Positions 85 through 15,154 of a DNA stretch of 64,000 nucleotides are shown one piece after another. Position numbers and translations under genes: made by a program. This stretch comes from Mycolicibacterium lutetiense. GTDB lineage: Bacteria; Actinomycetota; Actinomycetes; Mycobacteriales; Mycobacteriaceae. The stretch spans positions 310,001 through 374,000 of the forward strand of contig NZ_JAGIOP010000002.1 of assembly GCF_017876775.1 (NCBI RefSeq). The letters are read 5' to 3'. Under the pieces are notes generated by a model. It saw nothing but the letters and a program-made list of their open reading frames with translations. It made no database searches and was not told the origin of the DNA. Positions within the stretch are counted from its first letter, which is position 1; every line of letters begins with the position of its first letter.

Positions 85-167
85 GTGGCTTCGAAGCTGC
101 GCATGGCTTGACGGCGAGCGTCACGCTCGAAGCCGGGAGCCGCCCTGAAGCTCAATCCAAACCCCAT
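81..167 (-). CDS. 28-residue peptide ORF at the end of the Ter operon
   Basis: The frame starts at ATG 167 and stops at 81-83. It has an AGGAGG Shine-Dalgarno 6 bases before the ATG, the best ribosome site in this part of the operon. The product is short and basic with several Arg and Phe. It has no recognisable domain. It lies 33 bases after the TerD-fusion gene and overlaps the next frame by GTGA. It could be a genuine small protein, a translational coupler (leader) for the membrane protein, or the 5' end of a gene broken by a frameshift at about 83. The sequence does not distinguish these. Confidence 0.35.
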   Translation of the reverse strand: MGFGLSFRAAPGFERDARRQAMRSFEAT

Positions 168-200
168 GAGCGCCTCCTCTTTTGGTATTGCTCGTCGCGG

Positions 201-1778
201 TCAGCGAAAGGTCTCGGCCAGCGCCGCGCTGATCTGGCCGATCCGATGATCAATCCCTAATCCGCAGGGTGCGAATTGCCACACATTGTGCGTCCACGGG
301 TCGCACAGCGACGCGCCCTGGTCATCGACCGGCAGGTGCAGGCAATGTTCGGCGATATCGCGAAGCACCGGGGTCGGCGCGATGGTGTCCCATTGCGGGT
401 CACCGGTGAACACCAGCGACACGTTGGCGCCGTCGGCCATGTTGATCAGACTGACCACATCGGAGTAGGCCTCGGCGGGCATGGCGTATCCGAAATCAGC
501 GATGAGCACCACGCCGCCGGCCGGCACTGCTTCGCCTGCCTCGCGTCGCAGCGTCGCCAGATCGGCCTGCTCGATCAAGTGCTGCAACCGGCCCACAACC
601 TCGCCGGGTTCGGTCACCACCGGGCGTGGCATGTGCGCGGCCAGCGGCTGCCACAGTGGCCGCAGGCCTCCTGATATGTCGATGATGTCGAGTGTGGGAG
701 CGGCATGGGTCACCGCGGCCAGCAGCCGCAACACCAGCGACGCCGCCACCGGTGCCGCAGCCGAAGACTCGGTGCTGTCAAGCCAAATTGGGCGCCGCAG
801 CGGTGCCGACACGCAAAACGGGACGGTGAGCGAACCGACGTCGGGCACGGTGACTGTGCCCACCCGGATCCCGTTGCTGGGTGCACGCACCGCCTGCGAC
901 CACGTCGGAGCCTCCCACGGGGCCAGCGCCGACGGTAGCTCACCGTCGAGGGCGACCAGCTCGGCGCTCAGGTGCGCTGCGTCGCGCTGGTAATCGCCCT
1001 GGGCGCGGGCCATGAGCTCGTCATGGCGGTGTTCGGCGGTTTTGAGCGCATCCTGGGCCGCGGCGGTGTTTCGGGTGGCCGGATCAGCGATGGCGGCCGA
1101 CATCTCGGTGTCGCGACGCTCCTCGGCGAACCCGCGCGCGGCCAGCAGCGCCGAGGTGATGCGGGCAGCGTCTTCGTGGATCATCGCGAGTCGTTCGAGG
1201 GGATTGCTGTCACCGAGCGGTTCGATCGGTGCGTGCATGGCACCCGCGGGGGGCACATGTGCGACCGCGGGAATGACCGGCGGGGCGGTGGTTGCCGACG
1301 CCGATTCTGCGGTGGCAGGCAGGTTGAGATGGTGGGCGCCGAGCAGCTCGCCCAACCCACCCGAATAGCCTTGCCCGACGGCGCGGACTTTCCACCGGCC
1401 GTCTCGACGGTAGAGCTCGAAACAGACCATGGCCGGATGGATCTGGGCCCCGATGTTGAAGGCGATGTCGTCGGCCTCGCCGGTCAACCGGCAGGTCAGT
1501 TCGGAATGTGTCGACGGGTCGGTGGCGATGCACAACACGCGCGCGACGTCGGGGTCGAGCGCGTCGATGCGGATGTCGACCGCGCCGGTGTGAGCCAGGG
1601 TCACACCGGCGGGACGCACCACATGCACAGTGGACACGAAATGATCGGCCGTCGTCGCACGTCCGTGCTCGTCGAGCAGCAATGCAGCCACTCCACCGAT
1701 TTGACCGGCGACCTCGAATCGCAGATTGCGTTGCGACAGTGCATGATTCTGGCCTGCCACGAGCGTGTCCACTGTCAT
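201..1778 (-). CDS. TerD-domain protein with C-terminal alpha/beta domain
   Basis: This 525-residue protein opens with a TerD-type calcium-binding beta-sandwich (residues about 1-150). It shows the family ending FELYRRDGRWKVRAVGQGYSGG and a following helix. An Ala-rich linker and a helical stretch (about 200-270) precede a C-terminal alpha/beta domain (about 290-525). That domain has a hydrophobic strand ending in Asp (VVLIADFGY, about 428-436) resembling a Walker B strand, but I see no clear Walker A loop. It may be a degenerate FtsK/HerA-like or vWA-like module; this is inference. TerD proteins are cytoplasmic and act in metal or oxidative stress assemblies near the membrane. The gene follows the tandem TerD gene by only 3 bases, so it is cotranscribed. 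Confidence 0.8.
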   Translation of the reverse strand: MTVDTLVAGQNHALSQRNLRFEVAGQIGGVAALLLDEHGRATTADHFVSTVHVVRPAGVTLAHTGAVDIRIDALDPDVARVLCIATDPSTHSELTCRLTGEADDIAFNIGAQIHPAMVCFELYRRDGRWKVRAVGQGYSGGLGELLGAHHLNLPATAESASATTAPPVIPAVAHVPPAGAMHAPIEPLGDSNPLERLAMIHEDAARITSALLAARGFAEERRDTEMSAAIADPATRNTAAAQDALKTAEHRHDELMARAQGDYQRDAAHLSAELVALDGELPSALAPWEAPTWSQAVRAPSNGIRVGTVTVPDVGSLTVPFCVSAPLRRPIWLDSTESSAAAPVAASLVLRLLAAVTHAAPTLDIIDISGGLRPLWQPLAAHMPRPVVTEPGEVVGRLQHLIEQADLATLRREAGEAVPAGGVVLIADFGYAMPAEAYSDVVSLINMADGANVSLVFTGDPQWDTIAPTPVLRDIAEHCLHLPVDDQGASLCDPWTHNVWQFAPCGLGIDHRIGQISAALAETFR

Positions 1779-1781
1779 GTC

Positions 1782-2993
1782 CTAGAGGAAGCGTGCCATC
1801 TGCGGGGCAGCTTCACCGGGGTGCTTGGCTTGCATACCGTCCCCGATTGCCTGCAGCTTCCACTCAGCGCCGACGCGGAAGAACTTGGCCATCACCATCG
1901 CGGTGAAACGCATATTGGTTCCCTGCAGGGTGTAGCGGGCCAGCTCGCTGTTGGTGGTGGCGTCGACGAGCCGGCAGAACGCGTTGCTCAGCTGGTCGAA
2001 GGTGTGTCCCTTGTAGGAGGTGACGATGAACATCACGGTGGTGACGTAGGCCGGGATGCGGCTGAGATCGACGTTGATGACTTCGTCGTCACCTTCGCCT
2101 TCGCCGGTCAGGTTGTCGCCGGTATGGCGGATGGACCCGTCCTTGGATGCGAGCTGGCCGTAGTAGCACACATCGACGAGCTGGCCGTCTGCAAACAGCA
2201 CCGCCGAGGCGTCCAGATCGATGTCGGGGGTGCGGTTGCCGAACATTCCGCGTTGCTTGATGGGATCCCATCCCAAGCCCATGCGGACCTGAGTCAGTGC
2301 GACCCCACCGTCCTTCTTCAGCGAGACTCGTTGGCCCTTGGACAGATTGACGGTGCGGCCCTTGACCAGACTCACCTCGCCCGAAGAAGCGGGTGGGGGA
2401 GGCGGCGGCGCGGCGGGGGCCGGTGGTGGCGGGTAGGCGGGCGCGGCAGGCGGGGCAGCGCTGGACGGAGCAGGAGTAGACGCGGGGGCGTCGTCCACGG
2501 TCACACCGTGATCGGTCACCAGCGCTGCGAAACCGCCCGCATAGCCCTGGCCGACCGCCCGCACCTTCCACTCGCTGTTGCGGCGATACAGCTCGATGGC
2601 GATGACGATCGACTCGGTCGTCAGACCGTCGACGCGGTACTCGTAGAGCTTCTGGCCGGCAGTATCGCTGACCCACGCCATCGGGGCGGCAGACGCTCCG
2701 AAGGTGGTGCTGGGGTTGTCCAGCGTGATCACCGCGCGCACCCGGGCGATATCGGCGGGCACCGCGCTCAGCGTCACACCAAGGCTGGCGGGTTGGCCCG
2801 CGGCGCCGGGCTGCAATCGCACGCCCGGGCCGGTGGGCTGGTTGAAGAACACAAAGTCCGCATCGGAGCGGACCTTGCCGTTCTCGGTGACCAGCAGCGC
2901 CGACAAGTCAGCGGGCGCCGAGAGCTGCACCGATATCACCAGATCGGTTGCCGTCAACGGCCCGTTCTGACCTTTGCTCAGTTGGGTGGTCAA
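1782..2993 (-). CDS. Tandem TerD-domain protein
   Basis: This 403-residue protein has two TerD domains: residues about 1-165 and about 215-400, joined by a Pro/Ala-rich linker (about 170-210). The second copy is canonical, with GLGWDP near its start, the acidic calcium-binding signature [24 protein letters not shown], and the closing WKLQAIGDGM. The first copy is more divergent but keeps FVFFNQP and a WKVRAVGQGYAGG ending. Double-TerD proteins occur in actinobacterial Ter clusters and are thought to bind calcium and scaffold membrane-associated complexes. It sits between the HAD gene (51 bases upstream) and the TerD fusion gene (3 bases downstream). Confidence 0.9.
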   Translation of the reverse strand: MTTQLSKGQNGPLTATDLVISVQLSAPADLSALLVTENGKVRSDADFVFFNQPTGPGVRLQPGAAGQPASLGVTLSAVPADIARVRAVITLDNPSTTFGASAAPMAWVSDTAGQKLYEYRVDGLTTESIVIAIELYRRNSEWKVRAVGQGYAGGFAALVTDHGVTVDDAPASTPAPSSAAPPAAPAYPPPPAPAAPPPPPPASSGEVSLVKGRTVNLSKGQRVSLKKDGGVALTQVRMGLGWDPIKQRGMFGNRTPDIDLDASAVLFADGQLVDVCYYGQLASKDGSIRHTGDNLTGEGEGDDEVINVDLSRIPAYVTTVMFIVTSYKGHTFDQLSNAFCRLVDATTNSELARYTLQGTNMRFTAMVMAKFFRVGAEWKLQAIGDGMQAKHPGEAAPQMARFL

Positions 2994-3044
2994 ACCAGGT
3001 CCTTCCTCGTACGTGTCGAAGTCGTCACACTGTAGAACAGCCGC

Positions 3045-3881
3045 TCAGAGCGCTTGCGCGTTGTGTGCTGCTGAGCGGGCGTGAAACCACGCCAAGATCT
3101 CCTCGGCCGCCCCCGCGCCGTGCGCCGCGGTGACAGTGAGGCCTTCGGTCTGCCATCCCAAGGCGTGTAGTTCGCCGTGGGATGGGCGGATTGCGGCGTC
3201 GGCGGCGACGAGAAGTTCCGCATCGAGGGCGCCGTCGCCGGCAGCGAGCACCGGGGCATCGGCCGCCAGTTCACCGGTGGCGGTCAGGCGCCGGCGGACC
3301 TCTTGAACGGCATGGGATTTGCACAGCGATCGCGGCACGGTGTACACCTTGCGGCCCTGTTGGGACACCTTCCAACCGCGCGGGGCGCACCAGTGCTGCC
3401 AGGACTTCACGAAATCAGCCGGCATTGCGGCTTCGTCGACGACTAGATAGCAGAACAGGTCCTCGGCAGTCTTCACCGAGCGCACCCAGGTGTCGCTGAT
3501 CCGTGCATGCAAAGCCACCATGACTTCCTCGAGTGTGATCCCGCCGGCGGCCACTGCCGCGGCCACCGTCGCACTCCACCCGGGATCGGGCTGTCCGTCG
3601 ACCAGGATGGTGCCGCCGTTGCTCGTGACGGCGAACCGGTAGGGACCACCGGGCAGTGCGATGCGCTGATACTGAGCGACGGTGCGAGTGGTGGCCGGTA
3701 CGACCACCTGCCGCGATGCCAGCTGTTCCAGCGCGCTGATCGCAGGCGGCGTCATGAAGGAGATCTGCTCGCCGTCAAGGGTTTCCACGCACGTTGCCCC
3801 ATTAGAATCGGTGTGAAAGAACCGGTGCGAATAGATCAGGGTGCGGTCCAGGTCGCTGGCAATGAGGGCAGTCGCAGTCAT
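3045..3881 (-). CDS. HAD-superfamily phosphatase of the Ter biosynthetic module
   Basis: This 278-residue Cof/sucrose-phosphatase-like HAD hydrolase has the nucleophile motif DLDRTL (residues 10-15), a Thr/Ser motif II region after PATTRT (about 64), and the acidic motif IV GDGALDAELL near residue 215. This family removes phosphate from small metabolites. In Ter islands, a HAD enzyme next to phosphoribosyltransferases has been proposed to dephosphorylate a nucleotide-like product. The ATG at 3881 overlaps the stop of the upstream phosphoribosyltransferase-like gene by ATGA, implying coupled translation. The substrate is unknown. Confidence 0.85.
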   Translation of the reverse strand: MTATALIASDLDRTLIYSHRFFHTDSNGATCVETLDGEQISFMTPPAISALEQLASRQVVVPATTRTVAQYQRIALPGGPYRFAVTSNGGTILVDGQPDPGWSATVAAAVAAGGITLEEVMVALHARISDTWVRSVKTAEDLFCYLVVDEAAMPADFVKSWQHWCAPRGWKVSQQGRKVYTVPRSLCKSHAVQEVRRRLTATGELAADAPVLAAGDGALDAELLVAADAAIRPSHGELHALGWQTEGLTVTAAHGAGAAEEILAWFHARSAAHNAQAL

Positions 3882-4990
3882 GAGGTGACGTCCTTGATCA
3901 GGCCGACACAGGCGTATGCCAGCTCCGGATCGGTCTCGATGGGGACTTGGCGGGCCTGGGCGAGCAGACGAATGTGTCGATGTTCGTCAGCTTCAGGATC
4001 GCGCAGCACGATTTTCCATGGCAGTCGGCGCAGCAGCACGCGGGTGGTTTCACCGATACCGGGCTTGACGAAATTGGTGGTGCCGATTCCGTACTGCTGC
4101 TGGATCCGCGTCACGGTGGCCATGCCAGACCAGGTCGGCGTGCGATCGGTGCCCAGCAGGTCCTGCAACTGTGCGTCTGCCTGCGCCTCGACGTCGCCGA
4201 AGCGGGCGGTGACCGCGTCCAAGAAGGTCGCGGACTGATCGTCGGTGCTGAGTTCGCGGTAAAATTTGGCGCCGTGAAAATCGTCAGGCCCGGTCAGCCG
4301 CGGATTGAGCACCGTTCGCGAGACCAGTCCGGAGACAGTGGAATTCAGGCATGCCGAGGCGATCAGGAAATCGTCGCGGGTGCCGAAGGTTCGCACGCAG
4401 TGGCCCGGGTCGGCGAGCACCGCCAGGTCAGGATTGAACACCACGCCCGACGTGGTGGCGTATGCCGCCACCGCGTCGGTCAGCTCCCGGGTGATCGCAC
4501 CCTTGCCGGTCCAGCCATCCACGAACACCACCGTGGACGGGTCATGGTGGGCGGCCAGGTAGTCCAATGCCGCCGCATCGATGCCGCGGCCCCGCACAAT
4601 CGACACCGCGTAGTGCGGCAACGTCAACCCGTGACGTTGCCGGGCCCAGCGCCGCATGAGAATGCCGATCGGGGTGCCGGCGCGCGCCAACGACACCAAC
4701 ACGACATCGCGTCCGCGTTCGGCCAACACCATTTCGGTGACGACACCCACCGCGGCGGCCAGCCGCCCGGCAGTCTGCGCAAGCACTTCGGCGAACAGCG
4801 TCCGGTAGGCCTGATCGGGCTGATACTCGACAGGTAGCGATTCCGCGTAATGCGCCCGACCGCTTTGGATCTCACGCTCGCGCTGGGCGGTATCTGCTTC
4901 CAGCGCGATGTGAGACAGGTCGGTCAAAAGCCAGCTGACCTCGTCAGCGGCGTAGCTGCCGAACGTCGGGCCGAGCAGCGGCGTGGTCAT
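3878..4990 (-). CDS. PRTase_1/StiP-type phosphoribosyltransferase-like protein
   Basis: This 370-residue protein belongs to the family often annotated as cysteine protease StiP, now regarded as a phosphoribosyltransferase-related family found in Ter clusters. The central segment VVFVDGWTGKGA (about residue 160) resembles a PRPP-binding loop following a hydrophobic strand ending in Asp. RAGTPIG and an HY..S..RGRGID segment precede it. I place the start at ATG 4990, which overlaps the upstream TGA as ATGA like its neighbours. A second ATG at 4996 is possible. Its role is presumably one step in making the Ter nucleoside-like metabolite, by inference from context. Confidence 0.83.
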   Translation of the reverse strand: MTTPLLGPTFGSYAADEVSWLLTDLSHIALEADTAQREREIQSGRAHYAESLPVEYQPDQAYRTLFAEVLAQTAGRLAAAVGVVTEMVLAERGRDVVLVSLARAGTPIGILMRRWARQRHGLTLPHYAVSIVRGRGIDAAALDYLAAHHDPSTVVFVDGWTGKGAITRELTDAVAAYATTSGVVFNPDLAVLADPGHCVRTFGTRDDFLIASACLNSTVSGLVSRTVLNPRLTGPDDFHGAKFYRELSTDDQSATFLDAVTARFGDVEAQADAQLQDLLGTDRTPTWSGMATVTRIQQQYGIGTTNFVKPGIGETTRVLLRRLPWKIVLRDPEADEHRHIRLLAQARQVPIETDPELAYACVGLIKDVTS

Positions 4991-6246
4991 CGGCATTGCT
5001 CACGGTGCCCGGCCAGGGCCCGCACATCGGGCCCTGTCACGGTCACGACGGTGACCTCGAAGCCCGCTGAGGCGAGCACCTCGACGATGTGGCGGTCACC
5101 GGCGGCGGCGATGGCATCCACCACCAGCACCAGCTGCACGGCCTGGTCGCCATCAGTGTCGAGCCAACCGTTGTACAGGAACCGGGGTGCTTCGTCGCCC
5201 GTCTCAGACGCCCGGAAAGTCCAACCCGCCCGCAGCGGGTAACGCGCGTCGTCGTACACGTAGGCCGGTGAGCGGGTGGTGGATTGGAACCGGGTATCAA
5301 ACCCGCTCTGCGCCAAGGCGTCAGCCAGGCGCAGCGGTAGGTACATCAACTCCTCGTGTCCGACGACGAGGACGGGCCGGGTGGCGTCGAGGACGCCGGC
5401 CAGCCGATGCGCCGATTCGGACACCGCGGCGTCAAACGCTGGCCGGTCGGTGCGCAGAAAACCGTGGCGTGCACCTTCGGGGACCGTGCCGGGCCATTTC
5501 AAGGCGACTTCACGCACCGGGCACACTGCGTCGGGCCCGGCCGACGTGTTGAGCGCCGGGGCCTCCATCGCACACACGGAGTCGATCAGTCCCACCGGCA
5601 GGCTGACCCGGCCCTGGGCGAGACTGACGAACTCGATCTGCGTGCTCAGCGAGGCTGAAGCCTCTGCGACCAACGCCTGATCGTCGGCTGAACGCATATC
5701 GACCAGTGCGGCGACGATGTAGCGCGGGCGCGGCACAACGCGCTGCAGCGCCTCGATGGTGGCCAGCGCGGTCTTGCCGGTGGAGATCTCATCGTCGACA
5801 AGCACCAACGTGCGCTGCCCGTCGAACACTTCTGGGCTCGTGGGCTGCAACGCGTGGTCGGTAGCGTGCGAATGCCCCTCCTGAAACTGCGCATAGATCC
5901 AGCGAGCGTCGGCTGGGCGGCGGGTGGTGTGCAGATACACTGCGGCGTTGAGCTCATCGGCCACACAGTGGCCCAGGCTGGTTGCAGTCTCGGCCATCCC
6001 GAGCACATCGACCTCGCCCACACCGCATTGTGCGATCACCCTGCCAAGACGCCCGGCCGCCTCGATCACGGTCTGCGGTGCCACCGCGATGTGCTTGCCC
6101 AGCACGGTCGACACCAGCAGATGCGCGCGTCGCGGGTTGCGCCGAAGGCCCGGCAGCACCAGATCAGTCGCCAACTCGGCGCCATCGTGGTCATGTATCT
6201 GCAGGCCGAAACGTTCAGTGGCCCATGGTTGTTGCGTCAACGTCAT
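4987..6246 (-). CDS. Phosphoribosyltransferase with C-terminal TRSP domain
   Basis: This 419-residue protein has an N-terminal PRTase fold. The PRPP loop is LVLVDDEISTGKTA (about residues 147-160), with the acidic pair and the TGKT turn intact. The C-terminal region (about 250-419), rich in RF-containing segments around TRFQSTTRSP, fits the TRSP domain usually fused to PRTase_2 in Ter loci. The enzyme class transfers ribose-5-phosphate from PRPP to a base or base-like acceptor. It starts at ATG 6246, overlapping the stop of the lyase gene by ATGA, and its own stop overlaps the next gene. Acceptor substrate unknown. Confidence 0.87.
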   Translation of the reverse strand: MTLTQQPWATERFGLQIHDHDGAELATDLVLPGLRRNPRRAHLLVSTVLGKHIAVAPQTVIEAAGRLGRVIAQCGVGEVDVLGMAETATSLGHCVADELNAAVYLHTTRRPADARWIYAQFQEGHSHATDHALQPTSPEVFDGQRTLVLVDDEISTGKTALATIEALQRVVPRPRYIVAALVDMRSADDQALVAEASASLSTQIEFVSLAQGRVSLPVGLIDSVCAMEAPALNTSAGPDAVCPVREVALKWPGTVPEGARHGFLRTDRPAFDAAVSESAHRLAGVLDATRPVLVVGHEELMYLPLRLADALAQSGFDTRFQSTTRSPAYVYDDARYPLRAGWTFRASETGDEAPRFLYNGWLDTDGDQAVQLVLVVDAIAAAGDRHIVEVLASAGFEVTVVTVTGPDVRALAGHREQCR

Positions 6247-7439
6247 CGGGCAGCCAGCACCGTCAGGAAATCCACGAACGTCACGCCCTCGTTGGCCACG
6301 CCGAACACCCGGGCGCGGCGCAGCACCTGCTCAGCCCAAATGCGGTGAGGACGGGGTTCGTTCATCTTGTTGCGGTACTCCGAGCGGCGGACTCCGCCTT
6401 CGGTTGCGGCCATCACATCAGTGGCGTCGCGGTACTCCTCGTGCGTCACCACCGACAGCGCGTGCACAGCGGGCACGTGGGTGGGGTGGATGACCGTCTT
6501 GCCGAGCAACCCGTTGGCGCGGTCGAGGCTGATCTCACGCAGCAGCCCATCGAGGTCACGGCTGACCAGTCCGGACCGAAACCGCACGGCATCGTGCTCG
6601 GCGAACGGTGTAGTGCGCAATAGCGGGCGAAACAGCCGTTCGTGATCGGCGAAGTACTCCCACACCGGGGCGGTAACCACAAAGCCGGTCCCGTCGTTTC
6701 GGGCCAACCGATTGACGATGTCGGCGATCGTGTCCGCGACCGTCTTCACGTCGTAGATGGTGTGGTCACGGTCGCGGCGGATGCCATACATCCCGCACAT
6801 GTCGGTAGCGCCCACCCGAACGGCCAACACCATGTCGCGGTAGCGGCTGAGGATGTCAGCGATCGCGGTGAGCTCACCGTCGCGGCTTTCGCGATAGAGG
6901 ATCTGCGGTGATTCCAGCACCGGCATGCAGTACAGATGCTTGCCCAATGTCTCTGCAGCCTGGGCGATCTGGCGCAGATACCGTTCGCCGGTGGCGGCCG
7001 AGAACTTCGGGACCACGAAACCGGCAAGGGCCTGTGCGCCCACCGACAGCTTCCCCACGATGCGCTCGATGCAGGCCTCGCTGCGCACGCGCACAAACAC
7101 CATCGCCGTCGCGGCGAGACCGTCGGCGGCCAACTCGTCGAGTGCATTGACCGCGTTGAGTGCGGCGGTCTCCACGTTGGCCTCGTCAACCGCGTCTTCG
7201 AGGTCGAGCACCATCGAGCAGATACCTTCGCCGGCCCGTCGGGCCACTGTGGCGGCCAGATCGTCACGATCGGCCGGTATGTAGAGGGTGGCACCCAATG
7301 CGGTGGCAACGGTGTCACGTTCTGCGCCCAAGCTCAACGGCTGCGGGTTCGCGAAGAACAGGTGGGCGCGGTCAGCATCACCGAGGTGATGAAAATGCTC
7401 GACTGCCCGCACCGGGCGGGTGGTGTTCGGGGCGGTCAC
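6243..7439 (-). CDS. HpcH/HpaI aldolase / citrate lyase (CitE)-like protein
   Basis: This TIM-barrel protein of about 399 residues is related to CitE. The signature strand MVLDLEDAVDEAN holds the acidic Mg-binding residues, followed by RVRSE and the VPKF strand. CitE-like enzymes cleave or form C-C bonds on acyl thioesters or oxo-acids. Ter-linked members are part of the proposed metabolite pathway. I start it at GTG 7439, which overlaps the stop of the coiled-coil gene as GTGA. A longer frame to 7520 has an implausible Arg/His-rich leader. Confidence 0.86.
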   Translation of the reverse strand: MTAPNTTRPVRAVEHFHHLGDADRAHLFFANPQPLSLGAERDTVATALGATLYIPADRDDLAATVARRAGEGICSMVLDLEDAVDEANVETAALNAVNALDELAADGLAATAMVFVRVRSEACIERIVGKLSVGAQALAGFVVPKFSAATGERYLRQIAQAAETLGKHLYCMPVLESPQILYRESRDGELTAIADILSRYRDMVLAVRVGATDMCGMYGIRRDRDHTIYDVKTVADTIADIVNRLARNDGTGFVVTAPVWEYFADHERLFRPLLRTTPFAEHDAVRFRSGLVSRDLDGLLREISLDRANGLLGKTVIHPTHVPAVHALSVVTHEEYRDATDVMAATEGGVRRSEYRNKMNEPRPHRIWAEQVLRRARVFGVANEGVTFVDFLTVLAAR

Positions 7440-8638
7440 CGCGCAGACCGCTGGCGGATGCGCGTCACGATGCCCGCCACGAACTCTGAAACCTCTTCCA
7501 GTGCAAGGTGGTACCCCCAATAGTCCGGATGGCGCCCCTGAAGTGCGCCAACGATCCGATCAATACGTTCGACCTGCGCATCCAGCACAGACCCCCATTC
7601 GGCGACCGCGTCGCGGTCCACGGCCAGTCTCTGCGCATCCCGCAGGCGGAACCGCACCGCCTGTTCCGGCTTGCTCGGGTTGTCCCGGATGGTGCGTAGC
7701 ACCGTCAGCCGGTCCAAGGGGGCATCGACAAGGTCTTCAGCTGCCCCGATGGCCGCGCGCGCTTGCTGGGCCAGTTCCAGCGCGGTTTCCGCGCGGCCCT
7801 GCCGGTCGGCCAGAACTGCCTGCTGCAGAAGCGCATCGGCGCTGTCGAGGTCCGCCCGGCTGCGGCGTTCGTTGTCCACCAGATCTGCCGAGCAGTTCGC
7901 ATGAAATTCCCGCAGCAGCGTCGAGAGGCTCACCTCGACATCCGCCCCGCGGGTGCGCACCGCTGCCAGGCGGGTGCGTACTGACGACACGGTGCGGCGT
8001 GCTTTCTCGGCGGCCCCAGGGGCGCTGTCCAGAACCGCACCCAAGGCCTCGATCGCGGCATCGAGACGTTCGGTGGTATCGCGGGTGGCGACGAGGTCGC
8101 TGCGCTGTTGTGCCAACTGCAGCTCTCGTGTCGCGGTTTGCATCCCGTCGTGCGCAGACTGCACGGACGGGTACTGCAGCCACTGGCCGTCCGCTCCGGA
8201 CAGTCGCCCCTGCATGGTCTGGGCTTGCATGAGTAAGGTGGCCGCCCGCGCTGTTGTTGCCGTGGTCTCAGCGACGGCACCGTCGAGTGCACGCTGGTGG
8301 CGGGCATAGAAAGAGTCCAGCGTTGAACGTGCCTCATTGAGTTGGCTGCGCACCTCGGTGGCCGAGGGTCGCGGGCCGGTCTCGGTGAAACCGGTGGGGC
8401 CGGTGGGACTGGTGGCAGAAATGTAGGCCGCTGAGGCGTTATAGCAACGCTGTTGAACGGATTCCCACTCGGTGACTATTGGCGAACTGGGCTTGAGTGA
8501 GACAAGAGTGTGAACTGCGGATTGCACTTCCGATTGCCGATGGTCCAAGTCAAGGAACACACCGGTCAGCTCCGCAGGGACTTCGGGTGAGCGGCCGTCG
8601 GAGTGACTGCGAGACCGCCGCAGCCATCGACTGGGCAC
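7436..8638 (-). CDS. Coiled-coil protein, first gene of the Ter operon
   Basis: This is an all-helical protein of about 400 residues with long heptad-like Ala/Leu/Arg stretches and no enzymatic motif. A block around LQQAVLADRQGRAETALELAQQARAAIG resembles helical repeats found at the C-termini of actinobacterial TPM-domain proteins; that comparison is from memory and weak. It is not TelA by any motif I can see. Its position first in the biosynthetic operon, coupled to the CitE-like gene by GTGA, suggests a structural or scaffold role. Start chosen at GTG 8638. An in-frame start at 8677 would add 13 residues. Confidence 0.7.
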   Translation of the reverse strand: MPSRWLRRSRSHSDGRSPEVPAELTGVFLDLDHRQSEVQSAVHTLVSLKPSSPIVTEWESVQQRCYNASAAYISATSPTGPTGFTETGPRPSATEVRSQLNEARSTLDSFYARHQRALDGAVAETTATTARAATLLMQAQTMQGRLSGADGQWLQYPSVQSAHDGMQTATRELQLAQQRSDLVATRDTTERLDAAIEALGAVLDSAPGAAEKARRTVSSVRTRLAAVRTRGADVEVSLSTLLREFHANCSADLVDNERRSRADLDSADALLQQAVLADRQGRAETALELAQQARAAIGAAEDLVDAPLDRLTVLRTIRDNPSKPEQAVRFRLRDAQRLAVDRDAVAEWGSVLDAQVERIDRIVGALQGRHPDYWGYHLALEEVSEFVAGIVTRIRQRSAR

Positions 8639-8838
8639 GACTGAATCGTACCGGCCACCACCGACTCCAGAATGCACAGAGAGCGGTCCCTTGCAAACCG
8701 GTGAAGAATGCGTGTCGGGACGCCTCTCGGAGGCGGCATCATATGCATTACGGTACGAGGCGTCGCGCCGGATGGTGGGACAGCCACCGCGCGGATCTTC
8801 GCCGTTCGGTTCAACCCTTTGATGAAAGGTTTTGGTAA
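8639..8838. promoter_or_regulatory. Divergent promoter region of the Ter island
   Basis: This 200-base gap separates the minus-strand biosynthetic operon from the plus-strand terD set, so it must contain both promoters. I see no confident -35/-10 pair. An imperfect hairpin at 8813-8832 (AACCCTTT, loop GATG, AAAGGTTT; one mismatch) includes the AAAGG that serves as the terD ribosome site and could modulate its translation. Confidence 0.5.
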
Positions 8839-9414
8839 ATGGGTGTCAGTCTGAGCAAGGGCGGCAACGTTTCGCTGACGAAGGAGGCCCCAAACCTCAC
8901 CGCAGTCTCGGTCGGTCTGGGATGGGACATCCGCACCACCACTGGGACGGAGTTCGACCTCGACGCCAGCGCCATCGCGTGCGGCGAGAACAAGAAGGTT
9001 CTCTCGGACCAGCACTTCGTCTTCTTCAACAACCTGCGCTCTCCGGAGGGGTCGGTCGAGCACACCGGCGACAACACCACCGGTGAGGGCGAAGGCGACG
9101 ACGAAATCATCAATGTCGATCTGGCCGCAACCCCGCCCAGCATCACCAACATCTTCTTCCCGGTATCCATCTACGACGCCGATGGACGCCAGCAGAGCTT
9201 CGGCCAGGTGCAGAACGCGTTCATTCGGGTCGTCGACCGCTCCAACGGCAAGGAACTCGCACGCTACGACCTCTCCGAAGACGCCTCGACCGAGACCGCG
9301 ATGGTGTTCGGTGAGCTCTACCGCAACGGCGCCGAGTGGAAGTTCCGCGCGATCGGCCAGGGCTACGCCTCTGGCCTGGCCGGCATCGCTCGCGACTACG
9401 GCGTCAGCGTTTAA
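8839..9414 (+). CDS. terD: TerD-family stress protein
   Basis: This 191-residue protein is the usual single-domain TerD/TerE length. All family signatures are present: the opening [25 protein letters not shown], the calcium-binding [20 protein letters not shown], and the final [10 protein letters not shown]. TerD proteins are cytosolic calcium-binding beta-sandwich proteins needed for tellurite resistance and related stress tolerance. The start is ATG 8839 with AAAGG about 9 bases upstream. It heads the plus-strand set with the DUF475 membrane protein and the TerA-like gene. Confidence 0.93.
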
Positions 9415-9495
9415 GACACCACCGACATCGGAAGTGGCCGTCGGCGCCATGCGCCGGCGGCCACCGCTTACTCAAACGAAAAATCTGGGGGCACA

Positions 9496-10611
9496 ATGCT
9501 AGTACGCACATTCGGATTCTCGATGGTGGTGACTGTCGCAGCGCTGATCGCGGCGTTCCTCTACGGCGGTGTCGAGGCCCTGATTCTCACCGCCATCCTC
9601 GGCGTCTTCGAGGTGTCACTGTCGTTCGACAACGCCGTCATCAATGCCACTGTGCTGCAACGAATGAGCGAATTCTGGCAGAAGATGTTCCTCACCGTCG
9701 GGGTCCTGGTCGCTGTCTTCGGGATGCGTCTGGTGTTCCCACTGGCCGTCGTGTGGATTACCGCCGGCCTGGACCCCGCTCACGCGCTCGACATCGCGCT
9801 GAATCCGCCGGCCGACGGCGCAACACACTTTGCCGACGGCTCGCCGAGCTACGAGACAGCGCTAACCGCTGCCCACCCGCAGATCGCGGCCTTCGGTGGC
9901 ATGTTCCTCATGATGCTGTTCCTCAACTTCATCTTCAGCGAACGTGAAATCACCTGGCTCAGTTGGCTTGAGCGTCCCCTCGGCCGCGCGGGCAAGCTCG
10001 ATCAGCTCGCCGTCGTCGTCGCTCTGGGCATCCTGGTTGTTGCCTCCGATATCCTCGCACCTGACCAGGATCAACTCACCGTGCTGATTGCTGGTTCGCT
10101 AGGCCTGATCACCTACATCGTGGTCGACGGACTGGGCTCCATGTTCGAATCTGACGACGAGGAAGCCGAAGACGGCACCGCAGGATCTGAACCTTCACAG
10201 CTGGTGCGGCAGGCCGGCAAGGCCGGGTTCTTCCTGTTCCTCTACCTGGAGGTACTTGACGCATCGTTCTCCTTCGACGGTGTCATCGGCGCCTTCGCCA
10301 TCACCACCGACCCGATCGTCATCGCGCTCGGCCTGGGATTCATCGGGGCGATGTTCGTCCGTTCCATCACGATCTTCCTGGTTCGCAAAGGCACGCTGTC
10401 GGACTACGTCTACCTCGAACACGGCGCGCACTGGGCGATCGGTGCGCTCGCGGTGGTGCTGCTGGTGTCCCTGGGTATGCATGTCGACGAGATCTTCACC
10501 GGCCTCATCGGTGTCGTGCTGATCGCCGCGGCCTTTATCTCCAGCATCATCCGCAACCGCCGCGCCGCACAGTCGGACACCGACGACCAAACCCCCGCCC
10601 TCGCAAGCTAA
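9496..10611 (+). CDS. TerC-superfamily integral membrane protein (DUF475)
   Basis: This 371-residue protein has about nine hydrophobic segments. The TerC-like signature EVSLSFDNAVINA sits in an early helix (about residues 38-50), and a second copy, EVLDASFSFDGVIGA, sits in the second half (about 249-263). The membrane Asp/Glu residues are typical of this metal-handling superfamily. A charged cytoplasmic loop (about 215-235, DDEEAEDG) splits the halves. TerC partners TerD at the membrane and TerC proteins have been linked to manganese export. GGGGG lies just before ATG 9496. The gene is 81 bases after terD and 36 before the TerA-like gene. Confidence 0.9.
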   Translation: MLVRTFGFSMVVTVAALIAAFLYGGVEALILTAILGVFEVSLSFDNAVINATVLQRMSEFWQKMFLTVGVLVAVFGMRLVFPLAVVWITAGLDPAHALDIALNPPADGATHFADGSPSYETALTAAHPQIAAFGGMFLMMLFLNFIFSEREITWLSWLERPLGRAGKLDQLAVVVALGILVVASDILAPDQDQLTVLIAGSLGLITYIVVDGLGSMFESDDEEAEDGTAGSEPSQLVRQAGKAGFFLFLYLEVLDASFSFDGVIGAFAITTDPIVIALGLGFIGAMFVRSITIFLVRKGTLSDYVYLEHGAHWAIGALAVVLLVSLGMHVDEIFTGLIGVVLIAAAFISSIIRNRRAAQSDTDDQTPALAS

Positions 10612-10647
10612 TCGCACTACCGGAATCTGATTCGGAAAGGATCATCC

Positions 10648-11310
10648 GTGGGTATCGACTACACCAAGCGTCCTCAGCCCGCAGCACCGGCCGCCCCGCC
10701 GGCATCTGGTGGGGTCAACCTGTCCAAGATCAGCTTGACCAAGTCCTCACCGACGGTCAGCTTGACCAAACAGGGTGAACAGCAAGGCGTGATGCGGGTC
10801 AACCTCAACTGGAACGCCGGCAAGCGCAGCCTGTTCGGCGGCTCCAAAGCCATCGACCTGGACCTGGGCTGTCTGTACGAGCTTGCCGACGGCAGCAAAG
10901 GTGTCGTGCAGGCCCTCGGTAACAGCTTCGGCTCCGAGCAGTCCAAGCCCTATATCGCCCTCGACGGTGATGACCGCTCCGGCAACAGCGCTGCCGGTGA
11001 GACGATGCGCATCAACCTGGCACGGCCGGAACAGTTTCGCCGCATTCTGATCTTCGCCATGATCTACTCCGGCGCGGCCAACTGGGCTGCGGTGGACGGC
11101 GTCGTCACCATGTATCCCACCTCGGGCCCGCCGATCGAGGTCCGCCTCGACTCGCCGGTCGACGGCGCCAGGATCTGCGCGATCGCACAGGTCTACTACG
11201 CCCAAGGCGCGCTGCACGTCAACCGTGAAGTCAACTACATCCACGGAGATCAAGCGGATCTGGACCGTGCATACCAGTGGGGGATGAACTGGACGCCCGG
11301 ACGTAAGTAG
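10648..11310 (+). CDS. TerA-like TerD-family protein
   Basis: This 220-residue protein starts with GTG 10648, with GGAAAGG upstream. A Pro/Ala-rich N-terminus (about 1-25) is followed by short repeats of the type LSKISLTK / VSLTKQGE and a TerD-like fold with LNWNAGK, DLDLGCLYEL and the C-terminal ICAIAQVYY. The acidic DGDDRSGNSAAGE segment replaces the canonical HTGD calcium motif, as in TerA-type members. Last gene of the plus-strand set, ending in a strong hairpin shared with the convergent AIM24 operon. A role in tellurite or oxidative stress is inferred from family and context. Confidence 0.87.
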   Translation: MGIDYTKRPQPAAPAAPPASGGVNLSKISLTKSSPTVSLTKQGEQQGVMRVNLNWNAGKRSLFGGSKAIDLDLGCLYELADGSKGVVQALGNSFGSEQSKPYIALDGDDRSGNSAAGETMRINLARPEQFRRILIFAMIYSGAANWAAVDGVVTMYPTSGPPIEVRLDSPVDGARICAIAQVYYAQGALHVNREVNYIHGDQADLDRAYQWGMNWTPGRK

Positions 11311-11336
11311 CAGCCCACTCCGGGTACAGATCAGCC

Positions 11337-11375
11337 CGCGGATGTCGGCTCAGCGCTGCTGGGCCGACATCTGCG
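11337..11375. terminator. Hairpin between convergent TerA-like and AIM24 genes
   Basis: GATGTCGGC (11341-11349) and GCCGACATC (11363-11371) are a perfect 9-bp inverted repeat with a 13-base loop. Flanking CGCG/TGCG extends the stem to 13 pairs with one G.U. The loop contains the stop codon of the AIM24 gene, so the hairpin can serve both converging transcripts. There is no long T-run, as is common in mycobacteria. Confidence 0.6.
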
Positions 11376-12105
11376 TGGTGATCACCGAATTCAGGTGCTG
11401 CAGCCCGGAGAACGTCAGGCCGTGCAGCTGCGACTCGATGGTGCGAACGATTGCCGAATCACTGATCACCTTTTCGCTGGATTGCACCAAAATGGTTCCC
11501 GCACCAGTGAAGTCGAACTGACGCTCTTCCCCGGAGTTGAAGCCCATTCGTGCCGCACCCGCCGCCATGAAGCCGCTGATCCAACGCTGATCGAAATGAT
11601 GACTGGGCGCCGGGCAGTCCGCCCAGCCGACCAACGCTTCTGGATCGACCCGCGCCGGCGGCTCCACAAACATGACCGGACCGTTCGACGACGCGAGGAA
11701 CTTCCCGGTCCCGATCAGGGTGACAAACCCCGGTACGATCGACTGATTCATCGATAGGCCGGGCTCGAACGCCAACAGGTTGGCTGCCCGCACCGTCAGG
11801 TTCCCCGCGTCCAGGTCGTAGGCATTGATGTCGTAGCCGCGATCGCCGATCACCAGGCTCCCGTGGCCTTCGGCCACCACGTAGTCGCCCAAATACAGTG
11901 GCGCCGAGAAGTGCTGAGCCACCATGTGCAGCAGATTGCCCTGGAGGCTCTGCGTCAACGCCCGGAACTCGATCTGCCCGTAGTAGGCGATCATCGCTCC
12001 CTTGCGCATGAACCACGGCTTGGTCAGGTTGATGTTGAACGCATAGTTGTTACCGGGCACATTGTCATCAACCGGCAGCGTCGACGGATTGAGCGGCTGG
12101 GTCAT
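11350..12105 (-). CDS. AIM24-family protein (third of three)
   Basis: This protein of about 251 residues has an AIM24-type beta-rich fold. Visible signatures include MVAQHFSAPLYLGDYVVAEG, LLAFEPGLSMN and FVEPPARVDPEALVGW, the last being the conserved V-D-P strand near the end of the domain. AIM24 homologues in bacteria are soluble proteins of unclear function; the mitochondrial namesake affects inner-membrane structure. The start at ATG 12105 overlaps the upstream TGA (ATGA), with GGAGGAG 6 bases before it. It is part of a three-gene AIM24 operon inside a Ter island. Confidence 0.85.
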   Translation of the reverse strand: MTQPLNPSTLPVDDNVPGNNYAFNINLTKPWFMRKGAMIAYYGQIEFRALTQSLQGNLLHMVAQHFSAPLYLGDYVVAEGHGSLVIGDRGYDINAYDLDAGNLTVRAANLLAFEPGLSMNQSIVPGFVTLIGTGKFLASSNGPVMFVEPPARVDPEALVGWADCPAPSHHFDQRWISGFMAAGAARMGFNSGEERQFDFTGAGTILVQSSEKVISDSAIVRTIESQLHGLTFSGLQHLNSVITTQMSAQQR

Positions 12106-12797
12106 AGTTTCTCCTCCGAAGCCTGCACGTACACCACACCCTGTCCCACACAATGCAATTGCATCGCCTCACCCGAACCACGACCCACCGCATCACGCCA
12201 ACTGAGCGCCGACTTCAACTCAGTCGACACGTTGCCGTACGCCGCGACAAACGCCTGAGGATCGACCACCACCGGTGCCGGCCCACCCACCTGCAGCTCA
12301 ATCACCCCGCCGTGAGCGAGCAACACCGCGCCGCCCTGGCCCGAGAGTTGGGTGGTGAACATGCCCTGCCCGGTCAACGCCCCCGCAGCCGCACCCCGCA
12401 GCATTCCCCTCATCCCGCCGCCACCGGAACTCGCGCCGGCGACCGAGACCACCGCACTCTGCAGCCCCGCGCTGTGGGCCAGCAGACGCGAGGCCTCCAC
12501 TCGCAGCACCGCGCCCGGCGCAAGATCCACGGGGTGGACCTCCAAGCCGGCGAACCCGTAGTGGACATCGCCGTAGCCCTGGGCGAGCATGGTTCGTTCA
12601 TGCTCGCCCTGCATCATCCGCCCGGCCATGCCCATCAACCCACCGGCACCGCCCATCTGGGCCGCCCCGGGCACCTGATGCGGAGAGAACGCGACATCGC
12701 CGGTGTAGAACAACATCGCACCGGTGCGCGCTACGACGCCACCGGCCTGGGCGACGTTGACATTGACGACCTTCGAGTTGACCTTGGTGAACACCAT
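12102..12797 (-). CDS. AIM24-family protein (second of three)
   Basis: This protein of about 231 residues starts at ATG 12797 (MVFTKVNSKVV). A Gly/Met-rich internal insertion (about 45-70) and another near residue 130 (GGGGMRG) are low-complexity loops. The fold core LLAHSAGLQSAVVSVAG, GGVIELQVGG and the VVVDPQAFVAAYGNV strand match AIM24. It follows the first AIM24 gene by 10 bases and overlaps the third by ATGA. The longer upstream frame reaches into the previous gene and is not believed. Confidence 0.84.
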   Translation of the reverse strand: MVFTKVNSKVVNVNVAQAGGVVARTGAMLFYTGDVAFSPHQVPGAAQMGGAGGLMGMAGRMMQGEHERTMLAQGYGDVHYGFAGLEVHPVDLAPGAVLRVEASRLLAHSAGLQSAVVSVAGASSGGGGMRGMLRGAAAGALTGQGMFTTQLSGQGGAVLLAHGGVIELQVGGPAPVVVDPQAFVAAYGNVSTELKSALSWRDAVGRGSGEAMQLHCVGQGVVYVQASEEKL

Positions 12798-12807
12798 TGC
12801 TCGTCGC

Positions 12808-13431
12808 CTACCGTTCTGCCGGCTGAATAGACACCACACCAATGCCGTCCCAGCGCAACGAGAACGCCTCGCCGCCGCCCTGCCCGACGACGCTGCGCCA
12901 CGACACACCCGTGACAAACGACTGCTGAAGGTTTCCCTTGGCGCACACAAACGCGTCCGGATCGACCACCAACGGGTACTGCGGGGACACCTCCAGGTGG
13001 ATCAACGGCCCGCCCGCAGACAGCAGCGCCACCTGCCCGACACCGGAGACCACCGTGGTGAACAACCCCTGACCCGAACTGGCGCCCCGCAGACCGGCGA
13101 ACGTCACATCAGTGTGCAGATTGCCCGCCAACGCCAGCAGCTGTTGCGATTCCACCCGCAACTGCTCGTTGTTCAGCTCCAGCACGCATACGTGCTGGGC
13201 GTTGACCGCCAGGAAAATACGGCCGTCGCCCTGGCACTCCATCAGCGACAACGCCTCACCGGTGGCGCGCTGTTTGAGGCCGGCAAGGACCCCCGACCCG
13301 CCGCCGAACCCGGCCGACTTGAACGACACATTGCCCTCGTAGGCCACCATCGAGCCGCTCAAGGCCCGAACGCTGGTGCCGTGTACCCGCGCCTCGACGA
13401 CCTTCTTCGACATTTGCAACAACTGCGCCAT
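12808..13431 (-). CDS. AIM24-family protein (first of three)
   Basis: This 207-residue protein starts at ATG 13431 with GGGAGG upstream. The core contains RVHGTSVRALSG, LLALAGNLHTDVTFAGLRG, GQGLFTTVVSGVGQ and the YPLVVDPDAFVCAKGNL strand typical of AIM24. It heads the AIM24 operon. The upstream 242 bases separate it from the divergent Excalibur lipoprotein and should contain its promoter; I see no clear hexamers there. Confidence 0.85.
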   Translation of the reverse strand: MAQLLQMSKKVVEARVHGTSVRALSGSMVAYEGNVSFKSAGFGGGSGVLAGLKQRATGEALSLMECQGDGRIFLAVNAQHVCVLELNNEQLRVESQQLLALAGNLHTDVTFAGLRGASSGQGLFTTVVSGVGQVALLSAGGPLIHLEVSPQYPLVVDPDAFVCAKGNLQQSFVTGVSWRSVVGQGGGEAFSLRWDGIGVVSIQPAER

Positions 13432-13673
13432 AAACGCCCCCTCCCTCAGAATCTCAGCAGAACGATAATGCAGAGCCGCCTCGCCTCTCATCGCTGTCTG
13501 CCGAGAGGATTCCACGGCGCAGCAAAGTGGGCTCTCGGTGGCGGCTGAGCTGCCCTCGCGGGACATCAGAACTGCCGCCATTTGCCACCGCTGCCGGCTC
13601 GGCATCGCTATCGTCGATCCGACCACGTGACCCGACACCAGGATTCAGGGCCGCGAGGAGAGACGAGGTTCCG

Positions 13674-14183
13674 GTGAGTTCTTCTCACAGTCCGTACTAC
13701 AGCCTTCGGCATTGGTGGTCGCGCACGTCGACAGCAGGGCGCGTGTTTGTCGTCGGTCTGCTGATTCCCGTGGCCCTGGCCGGGATCGTCGGTTGTTCCT
13801 CTCCCGCGGAGGAGGGCCGGAATCTGGAACCAGAGTCGGCATCGACAGCCGCATCGACGACACCGACAACCACCACGCAGGTGACCACCACGACCACCAC
13901 GACCACCGTGCCGCCTACTACCGGCCAGACTTCCGTCGTTCCGCCTTCCCTGCCGAGCGAGACCGGTGTAGCAGAGCAGCCGGTGGTCGCCGGCGACCCG
14001 CCGTACCTGGGATCAGCCGATCAGGTCGAACCGCCGGTGGTGCCGTACATCCCGGCACCGGGGCCCTTCTCGAGTTGCGGTGCTGCCCGTGCTGCCGGAG
14101 CGGCCCCATTGCATCGCGGCTCTCCCGGCTACAGCCCTGCGCTGGATCGCGACGGTGACGGTGTCGCGTGCGAGACGCGCTGA
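13674..14183 (+). CDS. Lipoprotein with Excalibur calcium-binding domain
   Basis: The start is GTG 13674 with GAGGAG upstream, giving about 169 residues. A hydrophobic signal segment (about residues 22-40) ends in the lipobox IVGC, so the mature protein should be anchored to the outer face of the membrane. A Thr-rich low-complexity stretch (about 62-82) follows. The C-terminus has the Excalibur motif DRDGDGVACE with a preceding Cys, an EF-hand-like calcium loop. The Thr-rich tract is encoded by a repetitive ACC-rich DNA stretch. Function beyond calcium binding is unknown. Its place in a Ter island, where TerD also binds calcium, may be meaningful. Confidence 0.82.
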   Translation: MSSSHSPYYSLRHWWSRTSTAGRVFVVGLLIPVALAGIVGCSSPAEEGRNLEPESASTAASTTPTTTTQVTTTTTTTTVPPTTGQTSVVPPSLPSETGVAEQPVVAGDPPYLGSADQVEPPVVPYIPAPGPFSSCGAARAAGAAPLHRGSPGYSPALDRDGDGVACETR

Positions 14184-14224
14184 CCGGCCGACCGTGACTC
14201 CCTTGGGCCCCAGGCAGGTTCGCC

Positions 14225-14398
14225 ATGCTCCGCGGGTCGCTGACCGACGTGGTCTTCAAGCCCGGTACCCGCAACTGCAAGGTGCTGTCAGGGACGCTGC
14301 AGTCTGATCCCTATACCGGCCAGACCATCCATTACACCTCTACGCAGGCCAATGCGCTTCAGGTCGCGGTCGCCACGGCGTGCCCGGATACACCCTGA
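14225..14398 (+). pseudogene. Remnant of an HNH endonuclease-family protein
   Basis: A 57-codon frame reads LTDVVFKPGTRNCKVLSGTL, DPYTGQTIHYT and then a degenerate end. The pattern V-F-x-P-G-T-R-x-C-x-V-L-S-G-x-L-x-D-P-Y-T-G matches the segment just before the catalytic DHV motif in mycobacterial secreted HNH nucleases. That catalytic part is absent: after QANALQVAVATACP the frame stops. No signal peptide or N-terminus lies upstream. The region 14399-14579 holds no other gene. Confidence 0.6.
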
Positions 14399-14579
14399 GC
14401 GGGCAGCCCGTCACGAAGGCTGTGCCTGAGACAGTCGCGTATCCCTGAAAGCCGCCTCGGACGACCTCGACGCCCGAGGGCTGATCAAGGGATGCGCACA
14501 ACTCCGACACCACCCTAAAAGATGCACGTCAGTGCCGATAGGGTAAGTGCGGCAAATCGGATCATGAGAAGGAGCGCCA

Positions 14580-15035
14580 ATGGGATTCTGGGATCAGTTG
14601 CGGGCGAAAACGTCTGAGCTGAACGATCAGCTGCAACTCAAGACTGCGCAGTTCAAGAACAAGGAGTTTGCCAACGGCGCGATGGCCATGTGTGCGCTGG
14701 TTGCCGCTGCCGACGGGTCGATCGACCCATCCGAACGGCAGAAGACAGCGGCCTTGATCATGAACAACCAGGCGTTGTCGGTGTTCGAATCCGACGATTT
14801 GCGGCAGAAGTTCAACTGGTTCTGCGACAAGCTCGAAAGCGATTTCGACTTCGGCAAGGTGGAGGCAACGGCCACGGTCGGCAAGCTCAAATCCAAGCCG
14901 GAACAGGCACGAGCTGTCATTCAGATTGGCATCATCATCGGTGGCGCTGACGGCACATTCGATGAGCACGAGAAGGCGGCTGTGAAGGAAGCCTGCTTTG
15001 CAGTGGGCATCGACCCGTCTGAGTTCGACCTGTAG
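14580..15035 (+). CDS. terB: TerB-family tellurite-resistance protein
   Basis: This 151-residue all-helical protein has TerB length. It has both acidic loops of the internal duplication, AAADGSIDPSE (about 42-52) and GGADGTFDEHE (about 120-130), which bind divalent metal in this family. TerB is cytoplasmic or membrane-associated and works with TerC and TerD. GAAGGAG lies 6 bases before ATG 14580. It is separated from the main terD set by the AIM24 operon but belongs to the same island. Confidence 0.92.
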   Translation: MGFWDQLRAKTSELNDQLQLKTAQFKNKEFANGAMAMCALVAAADGSIDPSERQKTAALIMNNQALSVFESDDLRQKFNWFCDKLESDFDFGKVEATATVGKLKSKPEQARAVIQIGIIIGGADGTFDEHEKAAVKEACFAVGIDPSEFDL

Positions 15036-15057
15036 AACTCCGTGCGCAGGCGGTCAT

Positions 15058-15120
15058 GGATCGCTGTGGACACTGGCGGGGAACCGTTCGCCGAAGCGCG
15101 CATCGACTCCACAGCGATCC
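15058..15120. terminator. 13-bp inverted repeat between convergent terB and acyl-CoA synthetase genes
   Basis: GGATCGCTGTGGA (15058-15070) is perfectly repeated in inverse at 15108-15120, enclosing 37 bases that contain a smaller GAAC/GTTC dyad. It lies between two convergent genes, so a bidirectional terminator is the simplest reading, although the loop is long. Confidence 0.5.
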
Positions 15121-15154
15121 GATGACAACGCCGGTGCGGTTGAGCGCGGCGTGA

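Follow-up and report, generated by a model that had tools for sequence, protein, structure and literature searches.

Gene content of the island

The window, i.e. the whole stretch of 64,000 nucleotides analysed from Mycolicibacterium lutetiense (contig NZ_JAGIOP010000002.1), begins with a Ter island whose genes span window positions 201–15035; all coordinates given here are positions in the window. In a near relative, the site occupied by this segment of about 15.1 kb is empty. The segment encodes a set of four enzymes, along with sensor and membrane proteins, but has no ligase gene. On the minus strand, a single operon encodes a helical protein, a lyase, a phosphoribosyltransferase (PRTase_2/TRSP), StiP-PELOTA, a HAD-like protein, a tandem TerD protein and a TerD-fragment fusion, in this order. 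From the lyase to the HAD-like gene, neighbouring frames share 4–10 bp. The genes of terD, DUF475 and the TerA-like protein are on the plus strand and diverge from this operon, and three AIM24 genes and terB lie beyond them (Table 1). The initial annotation had described two PRTase-family genes, a CitE-like lyase and a HAD gene in an overlapping operon with TerD fusions, beside terD, DUF475, a TerA-like gene, terB and three AIM24 genes; the analysis confirmed this description, with the HAD-like and TerA-like assignments weaker than the others.

Table 1. Features of the Ter island (aa, amino acids; ORF, open reading frame; pLDDT, predicted local distance difference test)
Feature	Position	Strand	Basis
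Whole inserted island, ~15.1 kb, edges good to ~20–50 bp	100–15185		Empty sites in relatives L175, L176
TerD-fragment fusion protein, 525 aa, long C-terminal part of no known family	201–1778	-	Pfam TerD (C-terminal part of profile) E 8e-10; 34 relatives aligned
Tandem TerD-domain protein, 403 aa	1782–2993	-	Pfam TerD, 2 stretches, E 3.7e-81
HAD-IIB-like phosphatase, 278 aa, DLDRT motif kept	3045–3881	-	NCBIfam HAD-IIB E 2.8e-5 (below curated cut-off); trehalose phosphatase 6cj0 E 4.3e-10
StiP-PELOTA, 372 aa, start likely 2 codons later	3878–4996	-	Predicted PRTase fold and PELOTA RNA-binding domain; StiP E 3.5e-105, PELOTA E 3.7e-33
PRTase_2 + TRSP protein, 419 aa, VDDEISTGKT motif kept	4987–6246	-	PF15609 E 1.2e-62; PF12500 E 1.7e-28; alignment
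CitE-like C-C bond lyase, ORF 425 aa, conserved start near 7403	6243–7520	-	PF15617 E 3.5e-119; alignment
All-helical (coiled-coil) protein, 413 aa ORF whose true start is probably some codons further in; leads the operon	7436–8677	-	AlphaFold2 mean pLDDT 91.7
Intergenic region between divergent operons, presumed promoter region	8678–8838		Gene coordinates
terD, 191 aa	8839–9414	+	Pfam TerD E 2.9e-84, full length
DUF475/TerC-family membrane protein	9496–10611	+	PF04332 E 5.7e-131; PF03741 (TerC) E 3.4e-14
TerA-like (diverged TerD-domain) protein	10648–11310	+	TerD 19.0 bits, below cut-off; annotation of M. alvei counterpart
AIM24 protein 1, start uncertain	11350–12153	-	PF01987 E 3.1e-12
AIM24 protein 2, start uncertain	12102–12950	-	PF01987 E 4.5e-26
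AIM24 protein 3, start uncertain	12808–13638	-	PF01987 E 2.6e-31
terB	14580–15035	+	PF05099 E 7e-26

The Ter nucleoside-like biosynthetic module was reportedly described by Anantharaman et al. in 2012. Its C-C lyase (PF15617), PRTase_2+TRSP, StiP+PELOTA and HAD phosphatase (the latter below the cut-off) were all found in the island, as were linked genes of the TerD, TerB and TerC types. The mark of the gammaproteobacterial, ligase-bearing form is ATPgrasp_Ter (PF15632) in the operon, and the island does not have it. The island shows the order lyase-PRTase-StiP-HAD with no ATP-grasp gene, which is the ligase-free Gram-positive form as delimited here.

Two assignments were below the curated cut-offs and therefore rest on further evidence. 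The HAD-like protein matched no Pfam family and reached 24.3 bits against NCBIfam HAD-IIB (cut-off: 41.8); the further evidence is its match to the solved structure 6cj0. The TerA-like protein scored below the Pfam TerD cut-off of 25.3 bits, and its counterpart in Mycolicibacterium alvei carries the annotation 'Tellurium resistance'.

The C-terminal domain of the TerD-fragment fusion gave no match above the cut-off in the Pfam scan. It may resemble an FtsK/HerA-type ATPase domain, with no Walker A motif in the relatives displayed. On the strand opposite the third AIM24 gene, an ORF with an Excalibur domain (13527–14183) overlaps that gene's start; it has no clear role.

Island edges and the search for a ligase gene

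The edges were read from relatives with no island at this site. In the chromosome of one relative (L175), the site is empty, and window positions 99 and 15186 map 18 bp apart. In a second relative (L176), the distance between positions 77 and 15198 is 512 bp, and in a third (L174) the flanks are ~4.8 kb apart with other content between them. The island therefore begins at about position 100 and nothing of it lies further left.

A family scan of seven left-flank and three right-flank proteins found no ATP-grasp families. The seven proteins on the left are a CAAX protease, one protein with no confident family match, an M48 peptidase, a TENA/THI-4 protein, a redoxin, an APH-like kinase and an NlpC/P60 protein. 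A Ter ATP-grasp profile, built from 120 homologues of an enterobacterial Ter ATP-grasp protein, had no match in the region that begins 15 kb to the left of the window and ends near position 20000. When the whole genome was searched for ATPgrasp_Ter, nothing exceeded the cut-off of 29.1 bits; the sole match (24.6 bits) lay in an open frame of 1119 aa, which is probably CarB, judging from the frame length. These searches confirmed that the island is truly without a Ter-type ATP-grasp ligase gene, as had been noted from the sequence. The accompanying suggestion of a ligase just left of the window was not borne out, the island edge being directly beside chromosome common to relatives in which this site has no island.

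In the genus, the lyase (E < 1e-100) and PRTase_2 were found in the same 5 of 148 sampled genomes, meaning that the two come together or not at all. The island is an accessory module in mycobacteria and is also carried on plasmids. A compact form is the main cargo of the 23.6 kb plasmid pGD25-3 of Mycobacteroides abscessus (L163). This plasmid was 99.94% identical to a Mycolicibacterium chlorophenolicum contig over 13.8 kb and 98.3–98.8% identical to a contig of another relative over most of the plasmid length. The near-identity with contigs of other species points to recent interspecies spread. Many genomes of Rhodococcus and Nocardia have the island near genes which we take to be rplI, ssb and dnaB (33, 28 and 21 of 99 loci, respectively; e.g. 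L088, L097, L099). Its place in these genera is perhaps fixed in the chromosome, whereas its occurrence in mycobacteria is patchy.

Ligase absence in the sampled Gram-positive loci

We compiled 102 actinobacterial lyase loci from a named-genome scan (the best 80 of 191 loci), two other genome searches and plasmid records. They comprised 95 distinct lyases, 84 of them with at least 7 kb on each side. PRTase_2 and StiP were near the lyase in 101 of the 102 loci. No Ter-type ATP-grasp gene was present in any of the 84 distinct loci with both flanks, and the profile matched none of the 102 loci at E 1e-3. The same profile recovered three of three gammaproteobacterial loci and seven of seven remote, unlinked homologues in another actinobacterial genus; hence, it was sensitive enough for the actinobacterial negative to carry meaning.

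A Ter-type ATP-grasp gene was likewise not found in three Firmicute plasmid loci (Lactococcus, Alkaliphilus and Brevibacillus) or in a fecal scaffold. The latter (L172:575-9287) is an unverified 'phage' scaffold from human feces, which may be bacterial; it has three TerD genes, a short lyase, StiP and PRTase_2.

The picture was different in Gammaproteobacteria. Among 72,556 plasmid records, the lyase was found in 2515 and the ATP-grasp gene in 2499, and in the ten commonest genera, all of them Gammaproteobacteria, the two counts agreed genus by genus; this is an equality of counts, and adjacency was read in three records. Weak ATP-grasp matches among the plasmid records, e.g. in Haloferax, are probably not Ter genes. 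The gene order also differed: lyase-PRTase-StiP-HAD in Gram-positives and ATP-grasp-PRTase-HAD-StiP-lyase in Gammaproteobacteria. The exceptions were one extra gene in between in a Pseudomonas plasmid and no annotated HAD gene in Brevibacillus.

The gammaproteobacterial ter locus (IncHI2 and other plasmids; L039, L167, L168) has homologous genes for PRTase_2/TRSP, StiP-PELOTA, the HAD-like protein and the C-C lyase beside TerD, TerB and TerC genes. Unlike the island, it has ATPgrasp_Ter, and TerC takes the place of DUF475. Hence, the pairing of these enzymes with an ATP-grasp gene in a proposed nucleoside-like module, which the initial annotation had attributed to other bacteria, was indeed seen. 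The gammaproteobacterial lyase is shorter than that of the island by ~25 aa at the N-terminus and lacks an insert of ~32 aa after the VWEYF/VCEHI region. No AIM24 gene was annotated in these loci, and the helical protein had no match there.

Three other close systems were without an ATP-grasp gene. Plasmid pJCM12272 of M. alvei (L038) has the same genes in the same order, with ~82–87% DNA identity over most of positions 132–13477. It differs in its location on a 304 kb plasmid, in a DUF4236 gene that follows and in terB, which is outside the aligned part. The M. abscessus plasmid pGD25-3 carries the same two divergent operons and terB, with no ATP-grasp gene anywhere on the plasmid; it differs in having no annotated AIM24 genes and in carrying replication and relaxase genes. 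The Firmicute loci (Lactococcus pFI430 and the Alkaliphilus and Brevibacillus plasmids; L164–L166) share the order lyase-PRTase-StiP(-HAD) with the island. The helical protein was not found in them, pFI430 adds YceG and toxic-anion-resistance genes, and the Brevibacillus locus has neither a HAD nor a TerD gene annotated alongside.

Among the actinobacterial and Firmicute loci that were examined, having no ligase is thus the norm. As the Gram-positive relatives in this sample also lack it, the island is an ordinary member of the Gram-positive form and no oddity. The absence had been read as peculiar to this version of the system, and an ATP-grasp gene immediately to the left was expected to make the island ordinary. 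The absence itself stood; the exceptional status did not, and the island is ordinary even with no such gene found.

Proposed pathway and alternative explanations

The island is very likely an acquired, complete Ter island of the Gram-positive type, with the ligation step most likely left out. In this pathway, the four enzymes would convert phosphoribosyl pyrophosphate (PRPP), a base-like acceptor and a small acid into a nucleoside-like compound. The lyase would supply or trim a small carbon acid or base precursor. The transfer of phosphoribose would fall to PRTase_2/TRSP and perhaps also to StiP-PELOTA, and the HAD protein would take off a phosphate to give the nucleoside-like product. The TerD and TerB domains may respond to metal or to the product, acting with DUF475/TerC and AIM24 at the membrane, and the helical protein may scaffold the enzymes. 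The ATP-dependent ligation carried out by the gammaproteobacterial ATP-grasp enzyme would most likely be omitted, which would yield a related product without the ligated group. In a jumbo-phage review, the signal-making, biosynthetic part of Ter systems is said to include PRTases and HAD enzymes (PMC7824862). For Klebsiella, one report states that terZ-F alone were enough for tellurite resistance once moved to Escherichia coli, and describes the nucleoside-like metabolite output of the biosynthetic cluster as only predicted (PMC8115787).

Alternatively, a host ligase, either an unlinked ATP-grasp enzyme or one of another kind, could carry out the ligation step in trans. Among 11 lyase-bearing genomes of another actinobacterial genus, ATPgrasp_Ter exceeded the cut-off in nine, and in seven an unlinked homologue was strong (117–128 bits). 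Four of the 11 were without a strong one, and in the window's own family none of the nine lyase-bearing genomes had a match over the cut-off. Moreover, no island gene was found within ~10 kb on either side of the seven unlinked genes (L156–L162), and a mobile island would be less likely to depend on a particular host ligase. Overall, we consider a ligase in trans unlikely. Decay of the island, with an ancestral ATP-grasp gene lost in this lineage, would fit the presence of that gene in gammaproteobacterial loci. Against this, the actinobacterial and Firmicute loci examined lack the gene and have a common, different gene order, no close relative with the same gene order carries it among these loci, and the island's other genes are open frames with conserved motifs; decay is very improbable.

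The coiled-coil protein had been suggested as a replacement for the ligase. It has the first position in the operon, where the ATP-grasp gene sits in an enterobacterial plasmid. Of 124 lyase-bearing loci or pieces, 89 have it no more than 600 bp upstream of the lyase, and a profile identified it in a further five. However, its AlphaFold2 model has helices only and no strands (mean pLDDT: 91.7), structure-search matches include EzrA and helical bundles, and profile matches were EzrA and a chemotaxis receptor. In another actinobacterial genus, homologues stood at the island's opposite end in 8 of 11 loci, and in none of these 11 did the protein adjoin the lyase. Nor was it found in the Firmicute loci, where the ligase is missing as well. 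A replacement of the ligase by this protein is hardly credible. As an ATP-grasp enzyme it was rejected, the predicted all-helical model lacking the alpha+beta ATP-grasp fold.

For the island itself, the finding is ordinary: a known kind of system in its usual Gram-positive form. Tentatively, the Gram divide may separate two chemically distinct forms of Ter biosynthesis. Gammaproteobacteria would end with ATP-grasp ligation. In Gram-positives, the nucleoside-like product would be made without a ligase, mostly by means of an enlarged lyase and, in Mycobacteriales, with a dedicated helical scaffold, and the whole pathway would move between species on small plasmids. In gammaproteobacterial plasmids the ligase matched the lyase in frequency, and no ligase was found in the Gram-positive loci examined. 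This split suggests a minimal set made up of the other four enzymes, with the ligase as a separate step. Such a minimal set would make the chemistry of the Ter product easier to test.

One of these four enzymes has the database name 'cysteine protease StiP', which is at odds with its predicted PRTase fold. If StiP were a cysteine protease, the operon would be one of protein processing rather than a nucleoside pathway. The current Pfam and annotation names speak for a protease, as does Cys216, which is invariant in 50 aligned actinobacterial members; it is replaced in three gammaproteobacterial ones. The predicted fold matches PRTases and is of type I. The PRPP-like motif is DGWTGKG and lacks the second acidic residue of the usual PRPP motif. 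We regard the protease reading as quite improbable, and the predicted fold is a reason to re-examine the database name.

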